A stretch of 64,000 nt of DNA. It comes from Planctomycetota bacterium (GTDB lineage Bacteria > Planctomycetota > Phycisphaerae > Phycisphaerales > UBA1924). The notes under the pieces were generated by a model, which saw only the letters and a program-made list of their open reading frames with translations, did not search any database and had not been told where the DNA came from. The DNA lies in the NCBI GenBank assembly GCA_024280755.1, contig JAJRPN010000029.1, positions 1-64,000 on the forward strand, given 5' to 3'. A program made the translations under genes and the position numbers. Of this stretch, positions 26,661-63,092 are shown one piece after another; positions within the stretch are counted from its first letter, which is position 1; each line of letters starts with the position of its first letter.

Positions 26661-26719
26661 AGAAAGAGAGTAAAATGATGATTCACAATCCCGATGTACA
26701 TGGCGTCCGCCCATTGAAA

Positions 26720-26757
26720 AACCTGCTTAAGCTGCGCGTAAGCAGGGCACCCGGCAC
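26720..26757. repeat. Half-element D, copy 1
   Basis: A hairpin (CCTGCTTAAGC / GCGTAAGCAGG) with GGCACCCGGCAC at its end. It is the inverse of the left half of the family E copy at 63013 and recurs at 36448. Confidence 0.75.
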
Positions 26758-29904: not shown

Positions 29905-30125
29905 AAGATTTTGCCCCTATATAAGCGATTCCCGCCAGCAGCACCATTTCAGCACCCGGCCCACGATCGCATAAATATATCCGCACCTTCATCCCCAAGA
30001 GTTGCAATAAAACAGTTTTAAAATGAATATAGCAAAGAGGGCGATGCTTCCCCCTATCTCAGACCACTCAACCGATTTAGGGCGTGTCTGACGACTCATT
30101 CCCCGCACAAGGACGCTCTCTTTTT

Positions 30126-30191
30126 GCCTCCCCCGGGCTTCCGGGGGAGCACCCATAGGGCGGTTGTGGCTGCGCAGCAGACGGAGGAGGT
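30126..30191 (-). repeat. Family A unit 1
   Basis: GCCTCCCCCGGGCTTCCGGGGGAG hairpin followed by a second small hairpin (GCTGCGCAGCAG) and GGAGGAGGTC. It is slightly enlarged by an insertion relative to other copies. Confidence 0.75.
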
Positions 30192-30243
30192 CTTGAAGAA
30201 GGCAATGGGGAATGGGGAATAGGCAATGGGGAAGATATAAGAA

Positions 30244-30298
30244 AGACCCCCTCCGCCTCACTTCGATCGGCGCCTCCCCCGGAAGCCCGGGGGAGGCG
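30244..30298 (+). repeat. Family A unit 2
   Basis: GACCCCCTCCG, a small variable hairpin, then CCTCCCCCGGAAGCCCGGGGGAGG. Confidence 0.85.
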
Positions 30299-30486
30299 AA
30301 TAGTCAAAAAAGCCAAGCCGTCAGGCACGGCCTAGGCCGCGTGCCTGACGGCTTGGCTTCTCTTCTCTTGGGTGCCCCGTCGGAGCCGAAGACGGCTCTG
30401 ACGGGGTAAAAACAAGAGTTTCCGATCCCAAAGCGAGGAATAAGAATCCTCTGTCGGGCCGCCCGGAAAGAGCGGTTAGACACAAC

Positions 30487-35545: not shown

Positions 35546-35929
35546 GGCATTGGCCTGTCTGCGCCGTCTTGGCTTGTTGCTGTTTCGTGTTCCATAGTGC
35601 CAGAGCGTAGGCGGGTGTGAGTGCTTGTCAATGCGAGGGCGGGAAGTTTTTGTGGGGAGGGGGAAGGCAATGGGCAGTAGGCAGTAGGCAATGGGAAAAA
35701 TGAAGAGGGGGAGGAAGGGGACGGCAGGGTAGCCGGTGTGACTTGGGAGAACCTGCTTAAGCAGGCAAGAAAGACCCCCTCCGTCTGCGGGGACGCAGAC
35801 ACCTCCCCCGGAAGCCCGGGGGAGGCGGTTTCAGATAAGGATGAATTAAGAAAGGTGTGTGATTGCGCAATCTTTCGCCTCCCCCACGCTTGTGGGGGAG
35901 GTGGCACGCGGAGCGTGACGGAGGGGGTC
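35546..35929. other. Repeat-filled intergenic stretch upstream of the DUF559 gene
   Basis: No gene. Purine-rich low-complexity sequence (35640-35730), a short CCTGCTTAAGCAGG palindrome at 35751-35765, and two family A units in opposite orientation at 35773 and 35877. Confidence 0.7.
35773..35826 (+). repeat. Family A unit 3
   Basis: GACCCCCTCCG, internal hairpin TCTGCGGGGACGCAGA, then CCTCCCCCGGAAGCCCGGGGGAGG. Confidence 0.88.
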
Positions 35930-35930
35930 T
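35877..35930 (-). repeat. Family A unit 4 (at the 3' edge of the DUF559 gene)
   Basis: GCCTCCCCCACGCTTGTGGGGGAGG followed by a small hairpin (CACGCGGAGCGTG) and GGAGGGGGTC. It directly abuts the end of the endonuclease frame. Confidence 0.88.
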
Positions 35931-36346
35931 TATTTCTCTTGCTCTCGTTCCTCATCCCGTTGCTTCATACATTCGTCGGCGACCTTTGCGATGGTTCTTG
36001 TCACGGCTTCGAGATTGTTGAATATTTCGCGGGCGTGGATTCGGAAGATGTTGAGGCCTTGGGACTTGAGCCAGGCATCGCGGTGTTGATCGTGTTTGAG
36101 TTGATCGCCTTGGTGTGCGTTGCCATCAACTTCGATGATGAGGTGGGCGGCGTGGCAGTAGAAGTCGGCGATGAATGGGCCGAGGGGGTGCTGGGTTCGG
36201 AAGTGGAGGTTGTTGAGTTTCTTCGATTTGATCGCGGCCCAGAGTTTCTTTTCCGGCGGCGTGAGTTGGCGGCGGAGTTCCTTGGCCCGCTTACGCGATT
36301 GCGTTGTTGACTCGACGCGTTGGCGCAGGGATTTAGGATCGGGCAT
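35930..36346 (-). CDS. DUF559 endonuclease-domain protein (Vsr-like PD-(D/E)xK fold)
   Basis: From the ATG at 36346 the product is 138 residues. The DUF559 core is clear: RAKELRRQLTPPEKKLWAAI, LHFRTQHPLGPFIADFYC (catalytic-type Asp), LIIEVDGNAHQ (the E-x-D/G metal site) and the closing FRIHAREIFNNLEAV. The fold is shared with very-short-patch repair endonucleases; activity has rarely been tested. The frame continues upstream to 36439, but those 31 codons are simply the translation of a family A repeat (LPRASGGG...ETEG). The gene is therefore tightly bracketed by family A units on both sides, which links it to the repeats. Confidence 0.88.
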   Translation of the reverse strand: MPDPKSLRQRVESTTQSRKRAKELRRQLTPPEKKLWAAIKSKKLNNLHFRTQHPLGPFIADFYCHAAHLIIEVDGNAHQGDQLKHDQHRDAWLKSQGLNIFRIHAREIFNNLEAVTRTIAKVADECMKQRDEEREQEK

Positions 36347-36362
36347 GTGAGAGTATAGGAGG

Positions 36363-36418
36363 AAGACCCCCTCCGTCTCACTTCGTTCGACACCTCCCCC
36401 GGAGGCCCGGGGGAGGCG
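36363..36418 (+). repeat. Family A unit 5 (at the 5' edge of the DUF559 gene)
   Basis: AGACCCCCTCCG, hairpin TCTCACTTCGTTCGA, then CCTCCCCCGGAGGCCCGGGGGAGG. It ends 73 bases upstream of the endonuclease start, in the opposite orientation to unit 4. Confidence 0.88.
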
Positions 36419-36447
36419 ATGGGAGAAGATGTGCAGCACCCGGCAAG

Positions 36448-36484
36448 AACCTGCTTAAGCTGCGCGTAAGCAGGGCACCCGGCA
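36448..36484. repeat. Half-element D, copy 2
   Basis: Identical in its first 37 bases to the copy at 26720 (AACCTGCTTAAGC...GGCACCCGGCA). A further truncated copy (GCGCGTAAGCAGGGCACC) lies at 36630-36653. Confidence 0.78.
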
Positions 36485-36581
36485 CAAGGGGGGAGTGTTG
36501 GAGGGCAGTGATTTTGCGCACGGGGATGGTAGATAGGGAGGAGAAAAGCGCACGGGGGTGGTTATCTGTGGGGAGAAGAGG

Positions 36582-36756: not shown

Positions 36757-37278
36757 ATGAACAAATACTTCCTGATGAAACTCATTGAAGCATCTGGGGA
36801 CGAAGGTTTTCATGGCAGAAAACGTCTACAAAAAGTGGTATTTTTCTTGAAATTTGAGGGGCTAGCTGTCAATGCTGAATATGAACTCCACCGTTTTGGA
36901 CCATATTCACACGATCTTTCGCAGGCATGTTCTGATTTAAAGTCACAAGATTTGCTTGAAGAAAAAACATCCCCAACTGCAAGGGGTGGAGTTGAATACT
37001 CTTATTCGCTAACCACTCCCGGCAAAGCGGCGATATCTCATACAGAAGAGGTATCCCCAACTACTAAAACCGCATTTTCTTTGGCCGAAAGTACAGCAAA
37101 ATCACTTATCAGTTCAAAATTATGGGATCTAGAACTTGGATCAACAATTTTGTTCTATTATCAAAAATGCAATGACTGGGATCACGCTTTTAGCAATGCT
37201 TGCGAGTTTAAGCGCAAAGACTCAACATCCTCCTCTTCAACGAGCGCTTTGGCTTTCGCCAAATCATTTGTGAAATAG
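36757..37278 (+). CDS. YwgA-like protein
   Basis: From the ATG at 36757 (CGGAG eight bases upstream) the product is 173 residues. The N-terminal part has GRKRLQKVVFFLKFEGL and YELHRFGPYSHDLSQACSDLKSQDLLEE, which I recognise from the YwgA family of Bacillus, a winged-helix-like small protein of unknown role. Codons are AT-rich (CAA, AAA, TTT, ATT) and unlike neighbouring genes, and the usual strand skew of the region is weak here, suggesting recent arrival. The HD phosphohydrolase gene starts 26 bases later; ywgA and the HD gene ywfO are also adjacent in Bacillus as I recall, so the pair is probably a functional unit. Confidence 0.75.
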   Translation: MNKYFLMKLIEASGDEGFHGRKRLQKVVFFLKFEGLAVNAEYELHRFGPYSHDLSQACSDLKSQDLLEEKTSPTARGGVEYSYSLTTPGKAAISHTEEVSPTTKTAFSLAESTAKSLISSKLWDLELGSTILFYYQKCNDWDHAFSNACEFKRKDSTSSSSTSALAFAKSFVK

Positions 37279-37303
37279 GATCAGTGGGCACAGGAGATAT
37301 TGG

Positions 37304-38628
37304 ATGGGAGACAAGTTATTTCGTGATCCTTTATATAACTATGTCAACATTGACCAAATGATAAATGGCTTATTGATGCAATTGATTGCCCTGAAGTCCA
37401 AAGACTGAGACGAATACATCAACTTGGCGTCAGCCATTTCACATACCCTGGTGCGGAACATAATCGTTTGGCTCACAGCATGGGCGTGCTTTATCTTATG
37501 AGTAAAGCATATTCTCATCTTCGAGATACAGTGAAGGGTTCTCAAAAAGCACAAGTGGAGCACGCAAAACACTCGCTGTTAGCCGCAGCACTTTTGCATG
37601 ATGTAGGGCATGGCCCTTTCTCCCATCTTTTTGAACCGTGCATGGGCATTAATCATGAATACTGGTCCATAAGGATAATTTCTGATCCAGAATCCTGTAT
37701 CCATCGCAAACTTTCCAAAGTTTACTCTAACTTACCTACTGATGTTTGCGAGCTCATTAAAGGTGACAAACCGTCACTTCCTCGTTGGGAAAAATCTCTC
37801 ATATCTAGCCAACTTGACATGGATCGTATGGATTACCTCCGTAGAGACAGTTTGTTTTCTGGAGCCGGATATGGGCATTTCGATTGGTCTCGCTTGATCA
37901 CGACGATGGAACTTCATGAGAATGATAACGAGAGCATCGATCTGGTTTGGCCTGAAAAAGCATCGATGTCAATTGAAGAATATATTTTCGCTCGCTACTA
38001 TATGTATCAGAATGTGTATCTTCATAAAACCACACGAGGCTTTGAAGTACTGCTCCAAGCGATGTGGAAACGAGCAAAGACTCTGATCGATGAAGGCAGT
38101 CCCCCAGAACTAATTCCCGCTATTGAAAAATTGTGGCTTAATGATCCAGATGACATTTCTGTTGCTGAATATCTTGCCGTTGAAGAACATAGCGTTTTAT
38201 ATCAAATGCAGGCTTGGACAAGTTCAACTGATTCTGTTTTAAAAGATCTTGCTACTCGTTTTTTGAACAGAGACGGTTTTGCAATGATCGATCCACCACC
38301 AGTTAGCGATCCATTAACTGAGGACCGATCAGAGTGGGAATCTAAAGTTGCTGACGCGCTCAATGACAAAGACTTTAAAAACGCCTCCTGCTACTGCCTC
38401 AAAGATGAACTCAAAGCTAAATATCTTTCTCCATATCGCCCGGAGCCTGAAAAAGGGCTTCAAGACATGACAAATGCGATTTTCATCAAAAGTGACAATG
38501 GACAAGTACTTGAAGTATCTGAATCGCTACCAAGACTCAAAGCTGTAATTGAAATGGGCATGTCATCGAGTAAGTTTAAATATTATGTACCTAAATCCAT
38601 GCGAAAAATCGTACAAAACATCAAATAA
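37304..38628 (+). CDS. SAMHD1-like HD-domain phosphohydrolase (YwfO-like), 5' part frameshifted
   Basis: HD hydrolase related to deoxynucleoside triphosphatases. The intact downstream frame (37468-38628) carries RLAHSMG (first His), HDVGHGPFSH (His-Asp pair) and LDMDRMDYLRRD (last Asp). The true start is the ATG at 37304 with AGGAG seven bases upstream (MGDKLFRDPLYNYVNIDQ), but that frame stops at 37406. Restoring one A in the AAA run at 37356-37358 gives NDKWLIDAIDCPEVQRLRRIHQLG and a continuous protein of about 441 residues, close to YwfO. So the gene has a single-base deletion (or the sequence has an error), with catalytic residues intact. AT-rich like its upstream partner. Confidence 0.82.
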
Positions 38629-41560: not shown

Positions 41561-41628
41561 TTTTTAATAACTCCGGTTTGGTGTTTTGGTTTGTGTATGT
41601 TTATGAGAAGAGGGGGAAATACAGAGAA

Positions 41629-41679
41629 GACCCCCTCCGTCTGCTTCGCAGACACCTCCCCCGTCGGGACGGGGGAGGG
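41629..41679 (+). repeat. Family A unit 6
   Basis: GACCCCCTCCG, hairpin TCTGCTTCGCAGA, then CCTCCCCCGTCGGGACGGGGGAGG. It lies in the short space upstream of groES. Confidence 0.88.
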
Positions 41680-42216: not shown

Positions 42217-42374
42217 GTGCCTTTATGTATGGCAAAGGGCGTGCCATTGATTGGAGACGACAGGAGGCGAATTTGGTTGAATTTGGGGAATTGAGGAGTT
42301 GGGGTAGTGTCAGGTTTGGGGGATTTGTTGGGAGGGGTGCCGAATTGGCAGGAGGGGAGGGGGGAGAAGAGTTT

Positions 42375-42413
42375 AACGCAGAGGACGCCAAGATCACGCA
42401 GAGGTGCAGAGGA
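42375..42413. repeat. Family C repeat 2
   Basis: AACGCAGAGGACGCCAAGAT followed by CACGCAGAGGTGCAGAGG. Confidence 0.72.
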
Positions 42414-42430
42414 GGAAATATGAAAGAGAA

Positions 42431-42468
42431 GCCACGGCTTGCCGGGGACGGTCAAGCCGTGGCACCCG
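42431..42468. repeat. Family B repeat 1
   Basis: Hairpin CACGGCTTG / CAAGCCGTG with loop CCGGGGACGGT, followed by GCACCCG. Arms differ from copies 2-5 by compensatory changes (CACGGC against CACTGC), so pairing is preserved. Confidence 0.82.
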
Positions 42469-42621
42469 ATGAGTGTGAAATTGGGCGGTTTTTGTAAGTT
42501 TGTGACAGTTGGGGGTTGGGAGAGCATCTTTGGATAGCTCATGCCTTGGGTGTCTAAGGCAATCTGAGAACAGGGGAATGTGGAGCGTTCTGGCATGAGT
42601 TTTCTATTTGATGGGGCATCT

Positions 42622-44588: not shown

Positions 44589-44620
44589 GATGGGGAAGGG
44601 TATGCAGACATAGGGGAGCA

Positions 44621-44672
44621 AGACCCCCTCCGTCTGCTTCGCAGCCACCTCCCCGGGAGGCCCGGGGGAGGC
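44621..44672 (+). repeat. Family A unit 7
   Basis: AGACCCCCTCCG, hairpin TCTGCTTCGCAG, then CCTCCCCGGGAGGCCCGGGGGAGG. It separates the divergent PepSY and rmuC genes. Confidence 0.86.
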
Positions 44673-46164: not shown

Positions 46165-46185
46165 GATGGGATTGGGGGTGAAGAA

Positions 46186-46222
46186 CACTGCTTGCCGGGG
46201 ACGGTCAAGCAGTGGCACCCGG
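46186..46222. repeat. Family B repeat 2
   Basis: CACTGCTTG, loop CCGGGGACGGT, CAAGCAGTG, then GCACCCGG. It lies 21 bases after a family C repeat. Confidence 0.85.
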
Positions 46223-46231
46223 TACCGGGAA

Positions 46232-47041
46232 TTACATTGAGTTTTCGGATGTTCTTATTGTGAAATGGTGGCCGCACTCGGGGCATTGGGTGATTGAGGC
46301 GAGGCCGGTACGGGGGTAGTTGCAGGTTGGGCAGCGGGCTGTTTCGTCTACTTTGGCTGTGCGTATTCGTTGTTTGATGAGGTAGACCATGCTCCAGAGT
46401 GCGCCGGCGATAAACACGAGCGTGAGTAGGTCGGCGGCGATGTTTGCTGGGTGGAACTTTGTGATGGGTGTTGGGTTGTTGGCGATGAGGTTGAGGAAGC
46501 CTCGGGATTGCATTTGCTCGAACTCCCAGAATGGATCTGAGGATTTGAGGTTCAGTGCGGCTTCTGCCAGTACAAGCTCTACGAGTTCGCTTTGAGTGAG
46601 CAGCGTTCGCTTTGAAGGGTTGAAGATTGGGCTAATTTGCGACACGCCGCTGGAACTGATCCAAGGACGAAACAACGCGAAGTTGGTATTCGGATACATG
46701 CCGATGATAAACATACCGAGGCCTGTGTATCCATCGGGATCATCTCCTTCACTAAAGGATTGAATCACTTCTTCGTCTTCCATGTTCCGGAAGATCTTAA
46801 TTTTGGTGTCATACTCAACAGCCCTCATGTAATAGCGAGTGTGGGCACTGGTTTGACTGAAATACGGGATGGCAAGCATGACTATCGCGAGGACTCCGAG
46901 AGCAAGCCAGATGCGGGCGATGATTGTTTTGGTTTGCTGGGTTGGTCGATACGGGATGCAGATGGGTTGGATCTGCGGGGAGTAAAATAATTGCGTGAAG
47001 AGGAAGAGCACTGCTTGCCGGGGACGGTCAAGCAGTGGCAC
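46232..47041 (-). CDS. Membrane protein with C-terminal zinc ribbon
   Basis: The product has a membrane span near residues 43-60 (IWLALGVLAIVMLAIPYF), an extracytoplasmic region of about 140 residues, a second span (AADLLTLVFIAGALWSMVYLI) and a C-terminal zinc ribbon with CPTC and CPEC pairs. The true start is uncertain: the ATG at 47041 and the first 11 codons are the antisense reading of a family B repeat (MPLLDRPRQAV), and there is no other ATG before the first span. Either the repeat now supplies the start, or a non-ATG codon (for example GTG at 47011) is used. Function unknown. Confidence 0.7.
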   Translation of the reverse strand: MPLLDRPRQAVLFLFTQLFYSPQIQPICIPYRPTQQTKTIIARIWLALGVLAIVMLAIPYFSQTSAHTRYYMRAVEYDTKIKIFRNMEDEEVIQSFSEGDDPDGYTGLGMFIIGMYPNTNFALFRPWISSSGVSQISPIFNPSKRTLLTQSELVELVLAEAALNLKSSDPFWEFEQMQSRGFLNLIANNPTPITKFHPANIAADLLTLVFIAGALWSMVYLIKQRIRTAKVDETARCPTCNYPRTGLASITQCPECGHHFTIRTSENSM

Positions 47042-47045
47042 CCGG
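47008..47045. repeat. Family B repeat 3
   Basis: GCACTGCTTG, loop, CAAGCAGTGGCACCCGG. It overlaps the 5' end of the membrane protein frame and is 18 bases from family A unit 8. Confidence 0.85.
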
Positions 47046-47062
47046 CACCGGGATAAGTCGGA

Positions 47063-47117
47063 AGACCCCCTCCGTCTGCGAAGACGCAGCCACCTCCCCC
47101 GGAGGCCCGGGGGAGGT
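47063..47117 (+). repeat. Family A unit 8
   Basis: AGACCCCCTCCG, hairpin TCTGCGAAGACGCAG, then CCTCCCCCGGAGGCCCGGGGGAGG. Confidence 0.88.
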
Positions 47118-48016: not shown

Positions 48017-48080
48017 GGTTAGGAGTGTATACGAAAGAAGGAAAGGGTATGTGTTTGAATGTTGAATGCGTGCATGAAGA

Positions 48081-48118
48081 GCACTGCTTGCCGGGGACGG
48101 TCAAGCAGTGGCACCCGG
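48081..48118. repeat. Family B repeat 4
   Basis: GCACTGCTTG, loop CCGGGGACGGT, CAAGCAGTGGCACCCGGG. It is 26 bases from family A unit 9. Confidence 0.85.
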
Positions 48119-48143
48119 GACTGAGAAAGTGGATGAGTCGGGA

Positions 48144-48198
48144 AGACCCCCTCCGTCTGCGGAGACGCAGACACCTCCCCCGGAGGCCCGGGGGAGGA
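48144..48198 (+). repeat. Family A unit 9
   Basis: AGACCCCCTCCG, hairpin TCTGCGGAGACGCAGA, then CCTCCCCCGGAGGCCCGGGGGAGG. Confidence 0.88.
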
Positions 48199-49744: not shown

Positions 49745-49761
49745 GTGGGGAGAAGCAAGAG

Positions 49762-49801
49762 AAACGCAGAGGCCGCGAAGATCACGCAAAGGTGCAGAGA
49801 A
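49762..49801. repeat. Family C repeat 4
   Basis: AAACGCAGAGGCCGCGAAGA then CACGCAAAGGTGCAGAGA. Confidence 0.72.
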
Positions 49802-49839
49802 GAGGAAGAAGGATGTAGATGAGGAGAAGAGGTAAGATG

Positions 49840-49881
49840 TACGCGGAGGACGCAAAGGATTCGCAAAGGCGCAGAGCGAAG
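49840..49881. repeat. Family C repeat 5
   Basis: TACGCGGAGGACGCAAAGGA then CGCAAAGGCGCAGAGCG. Second C copy in tandem before B repeat 5. Confidence 0.7.
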
Positions 49882-49901
49882 ATGGGTTGGGAAAGAGAAG
49901 A

Positions 49902-49939
49902 GCACTGCTTGCCGAAGACGGTCAAGCAGTGGCACCCGG
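49902..49939. repeat. Family B repeat 5
   Basis: GCACTGCTTG, loop CCGAAGACGGT (two changes from the usual loop), CAAGCAGTGGCACCCGG. Confidence 0.83.
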
Positions 49940-49974
49940 TGCGGAGGGAAGAGTGGGATTTGGGGAATGAGAGG

Positions 49975-51288: not shown

Positions 51289-51426
51289 AACTTTCCCTTC
51301 TGAGCAATGTACGAGGCAGAGCATTGCACAGTTGCATTGTACTCTAAGATGATGATGTGAATACTGCTTACCAGAACCTAGGCGGTGTCTGATGGCTCAG
51401 TTCCCACACAAGGACGCTCTCTTTTC

Positions 51427-51478
51427 GCCTCCCCCGGGCCTCCGGGGGAGGTGGCTGCGCAGCAGACGGAGGGGGTCT
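51427..51478 (-). repeat. Family A unit 10
   Basis: GCCTCCCCCGGGCCTCCGGG and GGAGG, hairpin GCTGCGCAGCAGA, then CGGAGGGGGTC. Confidence 0.88.
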
Positions 51479-51509
51479 CTTGATGCTGAAACAAAGGGCA
51501 AAGCGAAGC

Positions 51510-51564
51510 AAGCCCCCCTCCGCCTCACTTCGATCGGCACCTCCCCCGGAGGCCCGGGGGAGGA
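51510..51564 (+). repeat. Family A unit 11
   Basis: GCCCCCCTCCG, hairpin CCTCACTTCGATCGG, then CCTCCCCCGGAGGCCCGGGGGAGG. Confidence 0.86.
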
Positions 51565-51615
51565 GAGTATGTGATCAAACACGAGCCGTCAGACACGGCC
51601 AAGTCAAGAGAAAAC

Positions 51616-57180: not shown

Positions 57181-57200
57181 GAAAAAAGAGAAACAAGAAA

Positions 57201-57240
57201 AACGCAGAGGGCGCAAAGATCACGCAGAGGTGCAGAGAAG
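57201..57240. repeat. Family C repeat 6
   Basis: AACGCAGAGGGCGCAAAGAT then CACGCAGAGGTGCAGAGAAG, between convergent genes. Confidence 0.75.
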
Positions 57241-57288
57241 ATAAAGAGGAGAAGAGGGGGAAGAGTGTGGAAGAGGGGAAAGAAAAGA

Positions 57289-62917: not shown

Positions 62918-63012
62918 GCCGGGCGCCCGATTTGAGGGGCCGGGTGCCCCGACTCGCCGTCTTGGGCGCAGTCGGGATCGGTTGACATATCACAAAAAGC
63001 CCACGCTGCACC
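62918..63012. other. Palindrome-rich 3' region of the PEP-CTERM gene
   Basis: GGGCGCCC, GGGGCCGGGTGCCCC and GACTCGCCGTCTTGGGCGCA form short palindromes. They may act as a terminator for the upstream gene. Confidence 0.4.
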
Positions 63013-63092
63013 GGGCGCCCTGCTTACGCGCAGCTTAAGCAGGTTTGGGGATTGAAGATCATGCCTAAGGCTTCGCCGAAGGCATGGCACCC
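63013..63092 (+). repeat. Palindromic element, family E, copy 3
   Basis: GGGCGCC...GGCACCC, with hairpins CCTGCTTACGCGC / GCTTAAGCAGG and GCCTAAGGCTTCGCCGAAGGC joined by GGATTGAAGATCATG. Same two-hairpin plan as copies 1 and 2; its left arm equals the D half-elements inverted. Confidence 0.78.

Follow-up and report, generated by a model that had tools for sequence, protein, structure and literature searches.

A gene for a DUF559 nuclease lies in a 64,000-nucleotide stretch of a Planctomycetota genome (assembly GCA_024280755.1, contig JAJRPN010000029.1, positions 1 to 64,000; hereafter the window), where it is bracketed by inverted copies of a palindromic repeat, family A. DUF559 is probably the cognate nuclease of small two-ended elements that carry an intrastrand-triplex motif at each end. 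The association of DUF559 with the repeats is observed directly, and from it we infer catalysis. The bracketing recurs in several phyla, the repeats follow a triplex code, repeat type matches nuclease clade, copy number is linked to DUF559, the ends occur in pairs, and pairs are present in some genomes and absent from others. That DUF559 acts on the units is the simplest account of the bracketing across phyla, the inward tails, the matched lineages of repeat and enzyme and the copy number.

The window protein matched PF04480 with 104 bits, above the cut-off, and with its Vsr-like fold and conserved active-site residues it is a DUF559/Vsr-like PD-(D/E)XK nuclease. The fold resembles Vsr and the homing endonuclease I-Bth0305I (VIA-align). 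A preliminary description of the window had placed inverted family A units tightly around the gene, and this arrangement was confirmed: the stop codon (35930-35932) shares 2 nt with the unit on the 3' side, the ATG lies 16 bp from the unit on the 5' side, and the same unit end (AAGAC/GTCTT) is turned toward the gene on both sides. An alternative longer frame, with a GTG start, extends to 36439 and reads LPRASGGGVERSETEGVF across the 5'-side unit, in agreement with the suggestion that DUF559 N-termini can be translations of the repeat. PADLOC matches of DUF559 were weak and were not taken as evidence of a role in defence.

The window corresponds to contig C34 in a genome of 3.02 Mb and 94% completeness, which holds four DUF559 genes, all four tightly bracketed by inverted repeat copies. 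The other three proteins are 42-52% identical to that of the window, and one of the four loci (L002) has its own repeat sequence variant, the same on both flanks. A methyltransferase was not seen beside the four genes when their loci of about 3.3 kb were inspected by eye, without a family search of the neighbours. The count of at least 11 family A units over 30-51.6 kb was borne out, with 11 located between 30.1 and 51.6 kb. A genome-wide count, which had been proposed as a check, gave 162 units by the exact core pattern and none when the same pattern was reversed. No known RNA family reached gathering scores in 29,900-52,000.

Bracketing was assessed with a finder for a hairpin and mirror tail, the tail pointing toward the gene, within 330 bp of DUF559. 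From named genomes of many phyla, 79 loci were collected by DUF559 alignment alone; nine with flanks shorter than 250 bp were dropped. Among the remaining 70, the motif stood beside DUF559 in 57 and on both sides in 26. Shifted windows of the same loci contained it in 59 of 1,509 cases (both sides, 1/1,509), and open reading frames of similar size had it at 7 of 208 (both sides, 0/208; Fisher versus DUF559, 2e-38 and 4e-18). Outside Planctomycetota the motif was found at 41/53 DUF559 loci. By group, it occurred at 16/17 loci in Planctomycetota, 15/18 in Alphaproteobacteria, 5/6 in other Pseudomonadota, 11/14 in Chloroflexota, 3/3 in Cyanobacteriota and 7/12 elsewhere. The genome and its relatives supplied a further set of 46 loci, 39 of which were located by protein (seven gave no tblastn match) and 37 retained after L011 and L045 were dropped for runs of N; of these 37 loci, which represent the window's own order, 36 had the motif, in 31 of them on both sides.

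A test independent of the motif pointed the same way. Flanks held inverted copies of each other (score at least 40) in 21 of 69 loci versus 2 of 1,143 windows; the raw count of 23/69 includes L050 and L068, in which 469 and 427 N were scored as matches, and 21 is the safe figure. Direct copies between flanks were present in 13/69 loci. The nearest unit in 225 flanks had its tail toward the gene in 132 and away from it in 34, with no unit in 59. On viral contigs the motif was found at 24 of 28 DUF559 genes, a count that includes several matches with one mismatch and stands without control windows. The statistical association that the preliminary description had asked for is strong within the genome, within the order and across phyla, and it supports the idea of a nuclease-plus-palindrome partnership resembling that of repetitive extragenic palindromes (REPs) and REP-associated tyrosine transposases (RAYTs), with a Vsr-like enzyme.

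As a separate observation on two of the viral contigs, DUF559 and its units (L244:4920-5438, L256:4980-5381) lie between apparent terminase and portal genes, as judged by eye. These neighbours resemble an HK97- or gene-transfer-agent-like head cluster, again by eye and without a family search.

Each unit consists of a C-rich arm, a loop, a G-rich arm, a spacer and a G-rich tail, in that order. The tail mirrors the G-rich arm rather than copying it; each G faces a G, and each A faces an A or a T. Examples of arm and tail are GGGGGAGG/GGAGGGGG, AGGGAGAGGG/GGGTGAGGGT, AAGGAGGGG/GGGGTGGTT and GGGGAAGG/GGATGGGG. Of 123 asymmetric arms, 82 were matched in full under the mirror code, compared with 15 under the direct order; mirror was better than direct in 80, worse in 8 and tied in 35. 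Arms set against tails of other types fitted in 1,357 of 13,408 trials, and shuffled tails gave a mean of 1.2 full fits per 123. Read from the sequence, these rules are those of the third strand in a purine-motif foldback triplex, in the scheme of Holder et al. Spacers fall into two classes, a short one of about 3 nt and a long one of mostly 13-22 nt; the long class usually holds a second hairpin and corresponds to family A of the window. As single DNA strands, five unit sequences gave good folds (z -2.2 to -6.1). A G-quadruplex was considered as the main code, given several G-tracts, and was rejected, since a quadruplex places no demand on positions other than G, whereas in the units these are mirrored between arm and tail, with A or T opposite A.

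Units also occur as two-ended pairs. Among the first 100 of the 162 units, 26 neighbouring pairs had their tails inside, one had them outward and none was in tandem. Spacing was 41-78 bp in 25 of the inward pairs and 155 bp in the other. Ends whose spacer contains GTGAG were called e1 and the second type e2, a rule set after the pairs had been seen; by this rule 25 of the 26 inward pairs join e1 to e2, compared with about 48% mixed pairs expected from 41 and 59 units of the two types. At 16 long-class Planctomycetota loci (L049 was dropped as it shares a contig with L041), an e1-like end upstream and an e2-like end downstream of DUF559 were found in nine, the reverse in two, two e2-like ends in three and other arrangements in two.

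Comparison with relatives revealed pairs present in one genome and absent from another. Three pairs on contig C19 correspond to empty sites in relative G009, where 232-264 bp are replaced by 7-20 bp. Contig C11 has two pairs that lack outer repeats; neither is present in G005, and the second is missing from G016 as well. At the site of the first, G009 carries one different unit. Gene-bearing islands come and go, by gain or by loss, since an island with DUF559 beside ftsY is present in G000, G006 and G018, and G014 and G016 have about 90-130 bp there, without DUF559. G014 keeps one leftover hairpin at this site. One fused palindrome (TTGCCCCTCCCCGCG..GGAGGAGCAAG) was noted there in G014 (L154:2421-2510), and a similar solo palindrome stands beside the ftsY island of G018 (L161, after ftsY); these palindromes are perhaps scars of lost islands.

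Repeat type was compared with nuclease lineage on a tree of 111 DUF559 domains, built by a quick method, in which 13 of 108 inner branches are strongly supported and 45 are open. Spacer class, labelled at 77 loci, changes nine times on this tree; 300 shuffles gave a mean of 26 changes and a minimum of 20. Arm type changes 18 times versus 38 after shuffling (minimum 33), and within the window's own order there are four changes versus 11 (minimum 6). Genome G006 holds both classes, each beside its own nuclease: the short class at L010 and the long class at L041.

Copy number was examined in 61 genomes, with DUF559 called present manually from scores above 50 bits. At least five exact motifs were found in 18 of 22 genomes with DUF559 versus 5 of 39 without (Fisher 1e-7, uncorrected for kinship). 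Repeats in genomes that lack DUF559, which would have spoken against the partnership, are accordingly few. The counting patterns were derived from units beside DUF559 in this order; other variants score low with them and would be missed in DUF559-free genomes, and G027, G039 and G045 have DUF559 with no motif under these patterns. The Spearman correlation with motif number was 0.69 for DUF559 and 0.20 for Y1 transposases. The Y1 (RAYT-type) loci of the genus are not bracketed, a motif occurring anywhere in the locus of about 2-3.4 kb in 4 of 24 (ten genomes). A RAYT as partner of the units was not supported by this count.

The units belong to the BoxC/PIT/TM repeats, a group recognized in E. 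coli since the 1990s whose origin is described as unexplained (PMC4666352; Hoyne et al. 2000, as cited there). The short class was reported under this name from more than 260 genomes, with 23 copies in E. coli MG1655, and forms a stable triplex in vitro (Holder et al. 2015, PMC4666352). Five inverted BoxC pairs of E. coli always combine a type A with a type B motif, according to the same paper, and so follow the logic of the e1-e2 pairs. Its authors examined the surrounding genes and report no mobility functions such as remnants of transposases or integrases, and its main text contains no mention of an endonuclease, a nuclease, DUF559 or ycjD. In MG1655 the gene annotated as DUF559 is ycjD (1,351,407-1,351,760), and BoxC motif 9 (1,351,204-1,351,239 in the table of PMC4666352) lies 167 bp from it; the chance of a BoxC within 200 bp of such a gene is about 0.3% (18 motif regions, 4.64 Mb). 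The ycjD region is at least 80% covered in 3,333 of 5,426 E. coli genomes. Between fabI and sapF, strains carry either ycjD together with its BoxC copy (L126:3205-3761) or the eef efflux operon, a site described in PMC12817139. E. coli was not accepted as a clean empty site: the three ycjD-free strains examined carry the efflux operon between fabI and sapF (PMC12817139). A degenerate unit-like hairpin was also seen to overlap the 3' end of ycjD (L126:3396-3421).

The proposed elements would exist in a gene-bearing form, with DUF559 between an e1 and an e2 end and both G-rich tails inward, and in a short form, with about 50 bp between e1 and e2. Solo units would be remnants or half elements. 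Once the G-rich strand becomes single-stranded, through replication, transcription or supercoil extrusion, a unit may fold into a hairpin with a third strand. The Vsr-like enzyme, whose relatives nick DNA at a distorted site or serve as homing enzymes, would read the fold of its own lineage and cut beside the tail, probably by nicking the folded single strand. Repair or template switching could then copy or insert the unit or the whole element. The Vsr-like fold hydrolyses DNA and is not known to join strands, so that joining is probably left to host repair. Spread would be homing-like rather than a classical transposition.

Several observations weigh against this reading. The finder was negative at 13 of the 70 DUF559 loci. 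A few DUF559-free genomes reach up to 27 exact motifs (27 in G009, which is 61% complete), and within the genus the number of Y1 transposases also tracks motif number (Spearman 0.70, compared with 0.82 for DUF559). The solo unit on the groES side, absent in G005 and G014, is decayed in G016 and is therefore old, not a recent insertion. DUF559 on the ftsY side may have been inherited vertically, with losses. The BoxC copy near ycjD in E. coli turns its tail away from the gene, and the sapF side has no unit; moreover, E. coli BoxC is reported to form no stable triplex in vivo (PMC4666352). Caulobacter VsrA, a DUF559 protein, has been proposed to act in mismatch repair (PMC12907096).

The VsrA data also favor an alternative in which DUF559 is a host repair enzyme of the very-short-patch type and the repeats gather around a dispensable gene in insertion-prone spacers. 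The spacers concerned are repeat-rich, and in E. coli a single site holds either ycjD or an efflux operon (PMC12817139). Nevertheless, small genes other than DUF559 in the same loci are unbracketed (both sides, 0/208), tails face the gene in 132 flanks versus 34, repeat class follows nuclease clade, and one genome holds nucleases of both the short and the long class, each next to its own repeats; we regard a repair enzyme as improbable, yet as the strongest competitor. Somewhat less probable is that the pairs are ordinary miniature inverted-repeat transposable elements (MITEs), whose outer inverted repeats would be used by a DDE transposase, with triplex units and DUF559 as passengers. Triplex pairs at 51385-51596 and 30084-30300 are nested in a larger element with outer GTGTCTGAYGGCTC inverted repeats, and about 60 outer ends of the GTGTCTGAYGGCTC type occur in the genome. 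A GTGTCTGACGGCTCRTG-like outer repeat (at most two mismatches) is present at 11 of the 26 listed pairs. Elements of this subfamily on C19 follow a TAG stop codon, one of them lying between CTAG and TTAG, and the outer repeats of this one subfamily might be usable by another enzyme. The outer repeat is missing, however, at 15 of the 26 pairs and at all four DUF559 loci. Facing outer repeats lie 79-258 bp apart, and no gene-sized element with such repeats was seen in the 94%-complete genome. Terminal inverted repeats with a target duplication on every copy, as expected of DDE-type MITEs, were not found; exact duplications were readable at one or two sites, the flanks elsewhere being too diverged. 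The association in other phyla would also be left unexplained.

A structure-reading nuclease could equally act as a brake, cleaving or repairing triplex-forming DNA to guard against the repeats, and triplex motifs have been tied to instability in E. coli (PMC4666352). Copy number rises with DUF559, the opposite of what a brake would produce, and the DUF559 gene has the same end geometry as the short elements, making this role quite unlikely. Least credible of all is a regulatory role, in which the units serve DUF559 as terminators or as hairpins of some other kind; their position at or near the stop codon and their good folding as single-stranded DNA could be cited in its favor. The mirror code is a DNA code, since RNA forms no purine-motif triplexes, and copies in E. 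coli are reported to have neither promoter nor terminator activity (PMC4666352); other small genes lack units, and hundreds of copies lie elsewhere. The repair enzyme and, for one subfamily, a transposase acting on the outer repeats are the main rivals to DUF559 as the cognate nuclease, and neither explains the match of repeat type and nuclease clade across phyla.

The features located in the window are listed in Table 1.

Table 1. The DUF559 gene, family A units and outer inverted repeats of the window.
Feature	Position	Strand	Remark
DUF559 (Vsr-like) nuclease gene	35930..36346	-	138 aa from ATG
Unit on 3' side of DUF559 gene, e2-like end	core 35878..35931	-	GTCTT overlaps stop codon
Unit on 5' side of DUF559 gene, e1-like end, inverted	36363..36416	+	16 bp upstream of ATG
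Third unit, outside the 3'-side unit	35771..35825	+	
Unit with insert within spacer	30127..30194	-	partner of 30243..30296
Unit	30243..30296	+	inverted partner of 30127..30194
Solo unit adjoining groES	41627..41678	+	missing from orthologous site in G005, G014; decayed copy in G016
Solo unit	44620..44671	+	also in relative G005
Solo unit	47062..47116	+	
Solo unit	48143..48197	+	orthologous site of G014 without unit
Unit of inverted pair, e2 end	51428..51478	-	
Unit of inverted pair, e1 end	51510..51563	+	about 40 bp between cores of pair
Outer inverted repeat, GTGTCTGAYGGCTC type, of element holding the 51.4-kb pair	51385..51401	+	family D8
Outer inverted repeat, other end of 51.4-kb element	51580..51596	-	
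Outer inverted repeat beside 30.1-kb pair	30084..30100	+	

Beside the DUF559 island, a gene pair at 36757-38628 encodes a DarG-like small protein (PADLOC, 33.9 bits) and an HD-domain protein. A second palindromic family, with variable stems and a constant tail of the GGCACCCGG type (among repeat families D2, D6 and I7), occurs at 26717-26757, 36445-36485, 42427-42477, 46180-46230, 47003-47053, 48076-48126, 49897-49947 and 62993-63045; in relatives it also adjoins triplex units. A third dispersed repeat of the ACGCAGAGG..GCAGAG type (family D4), with no clear palindrome, lies at 42362-42421, 49750-49809, 49827-49886 and 57188-57247.

BoxC/PIT/TM repeats have so far been without an enzyme, and the bracketing of DUF559 across phyla makes their origin directly testable. 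The results suggest that DUF559 is the missing partner that spreads this old, unexplained class of bacterial DNA repeats. DUF559, listed in Pfam with unknown function, gains a likely substrate. If the reading of DUF559 as cognate nuclease is true, this would be a second enzyme-plus-palindrome partnership beside RAYT/REP, with an unrelated enzyme and a non-B DNA structure as its recognition code. A bolder extension, held tentatively and with somewhat less than even confidence, is that of a phylum-spanning selfish DNA whose sole gene is a triplex-reading Vsr-like nuclease spreading the repeats of its own lineage; the BoxC/PIT/TM repeats, in E. coli as in hundreds of other bacteria, would be its offspring and ycjD a relic partner. 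The BoxC/PIT/TM identity of the units, the three-strand code and the two-ended elements go beyond the preliminary description.

Among known systems, the Vsr mismatch-repair enzyme is defined by nicking at T:G mismatches within a methylated motif. In contrast to Vsr, Caulobacter VsrA and E. coli YcjD (PRK09767), the gene described here is bracketed by repeats, and an adjoining methyltransferase was not seen by eye. MITEs with DDE transposases share with one subfamily the outer inverted repeats and the position between short TAG repeats, whereas most listed pairs and all DUF559 loci have no such ends and no gene-sized element was seen. A homing endonuclease cuts the element-free allele, and repair then copies the element in. 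In comparison with the EDxHD homing endonucleases such as I-Bth0305I, the DUF559 gene here has no intron or intein and is free-standing between repeats. A DUF559 gene of the EDxHD family has been reported in inteins (PMC9403480).

With BoxC/PIT/TM the units share the order of C-rich arm, G-rich arm and mirror tail, the class II purine-motif code (the tail mirrors the purine arm in 82/123, with 15 in direct order and a shuffled mean of 1.2), the intergenic location and the inverted pairs of two types. They differ in arm sequences and in the 13-22-nt spacer with a second hairpin of family A, where the E. coli motif has a short second loop of 3 nt; this 3-nt class is found at other DUF559 loci. 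A triplex in solution was demonstrated for the E. coli motif (PMC4666352); for family A it is a prediction from the sequence code. The repeats are filed as a variant of BoxC/PIT/TM and the enzyme as a Vsr-like DUF559 protein.

The closest parallel in organization is REP/REPIN-RAYT (TnpA_REP): a single gene between inverted palindromes, a dispersed swarm, inverted pairs and a lineage-specific repeat type. The present repeats likewise bracket their own gene and occur as a swarm of inverted pairs. The partner, however, is a PF04480 Vsr-like nuclease and not an HUH/Y1 tyrosine transposase, the units carry a mirror tail in place of the GTAG/CGTC tag of REPs, and Y1 genes here are unbracketed. CGTC-tagged REPs, said to be without a transposase (PMC3733652), were also considered, and their AT pairs at the foot of the stem and CCA tail do not fit. 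No paper linking DUF559 to such repeats was found in the literature searched, which leaves subscription papers and preprints outside. Both the repeats and the nuclease were already known separately, and the joined system is new as far as searched. By analogy, the repeat-nuclease pair is best read as working like REP/RAYT without being REP/RAYT.
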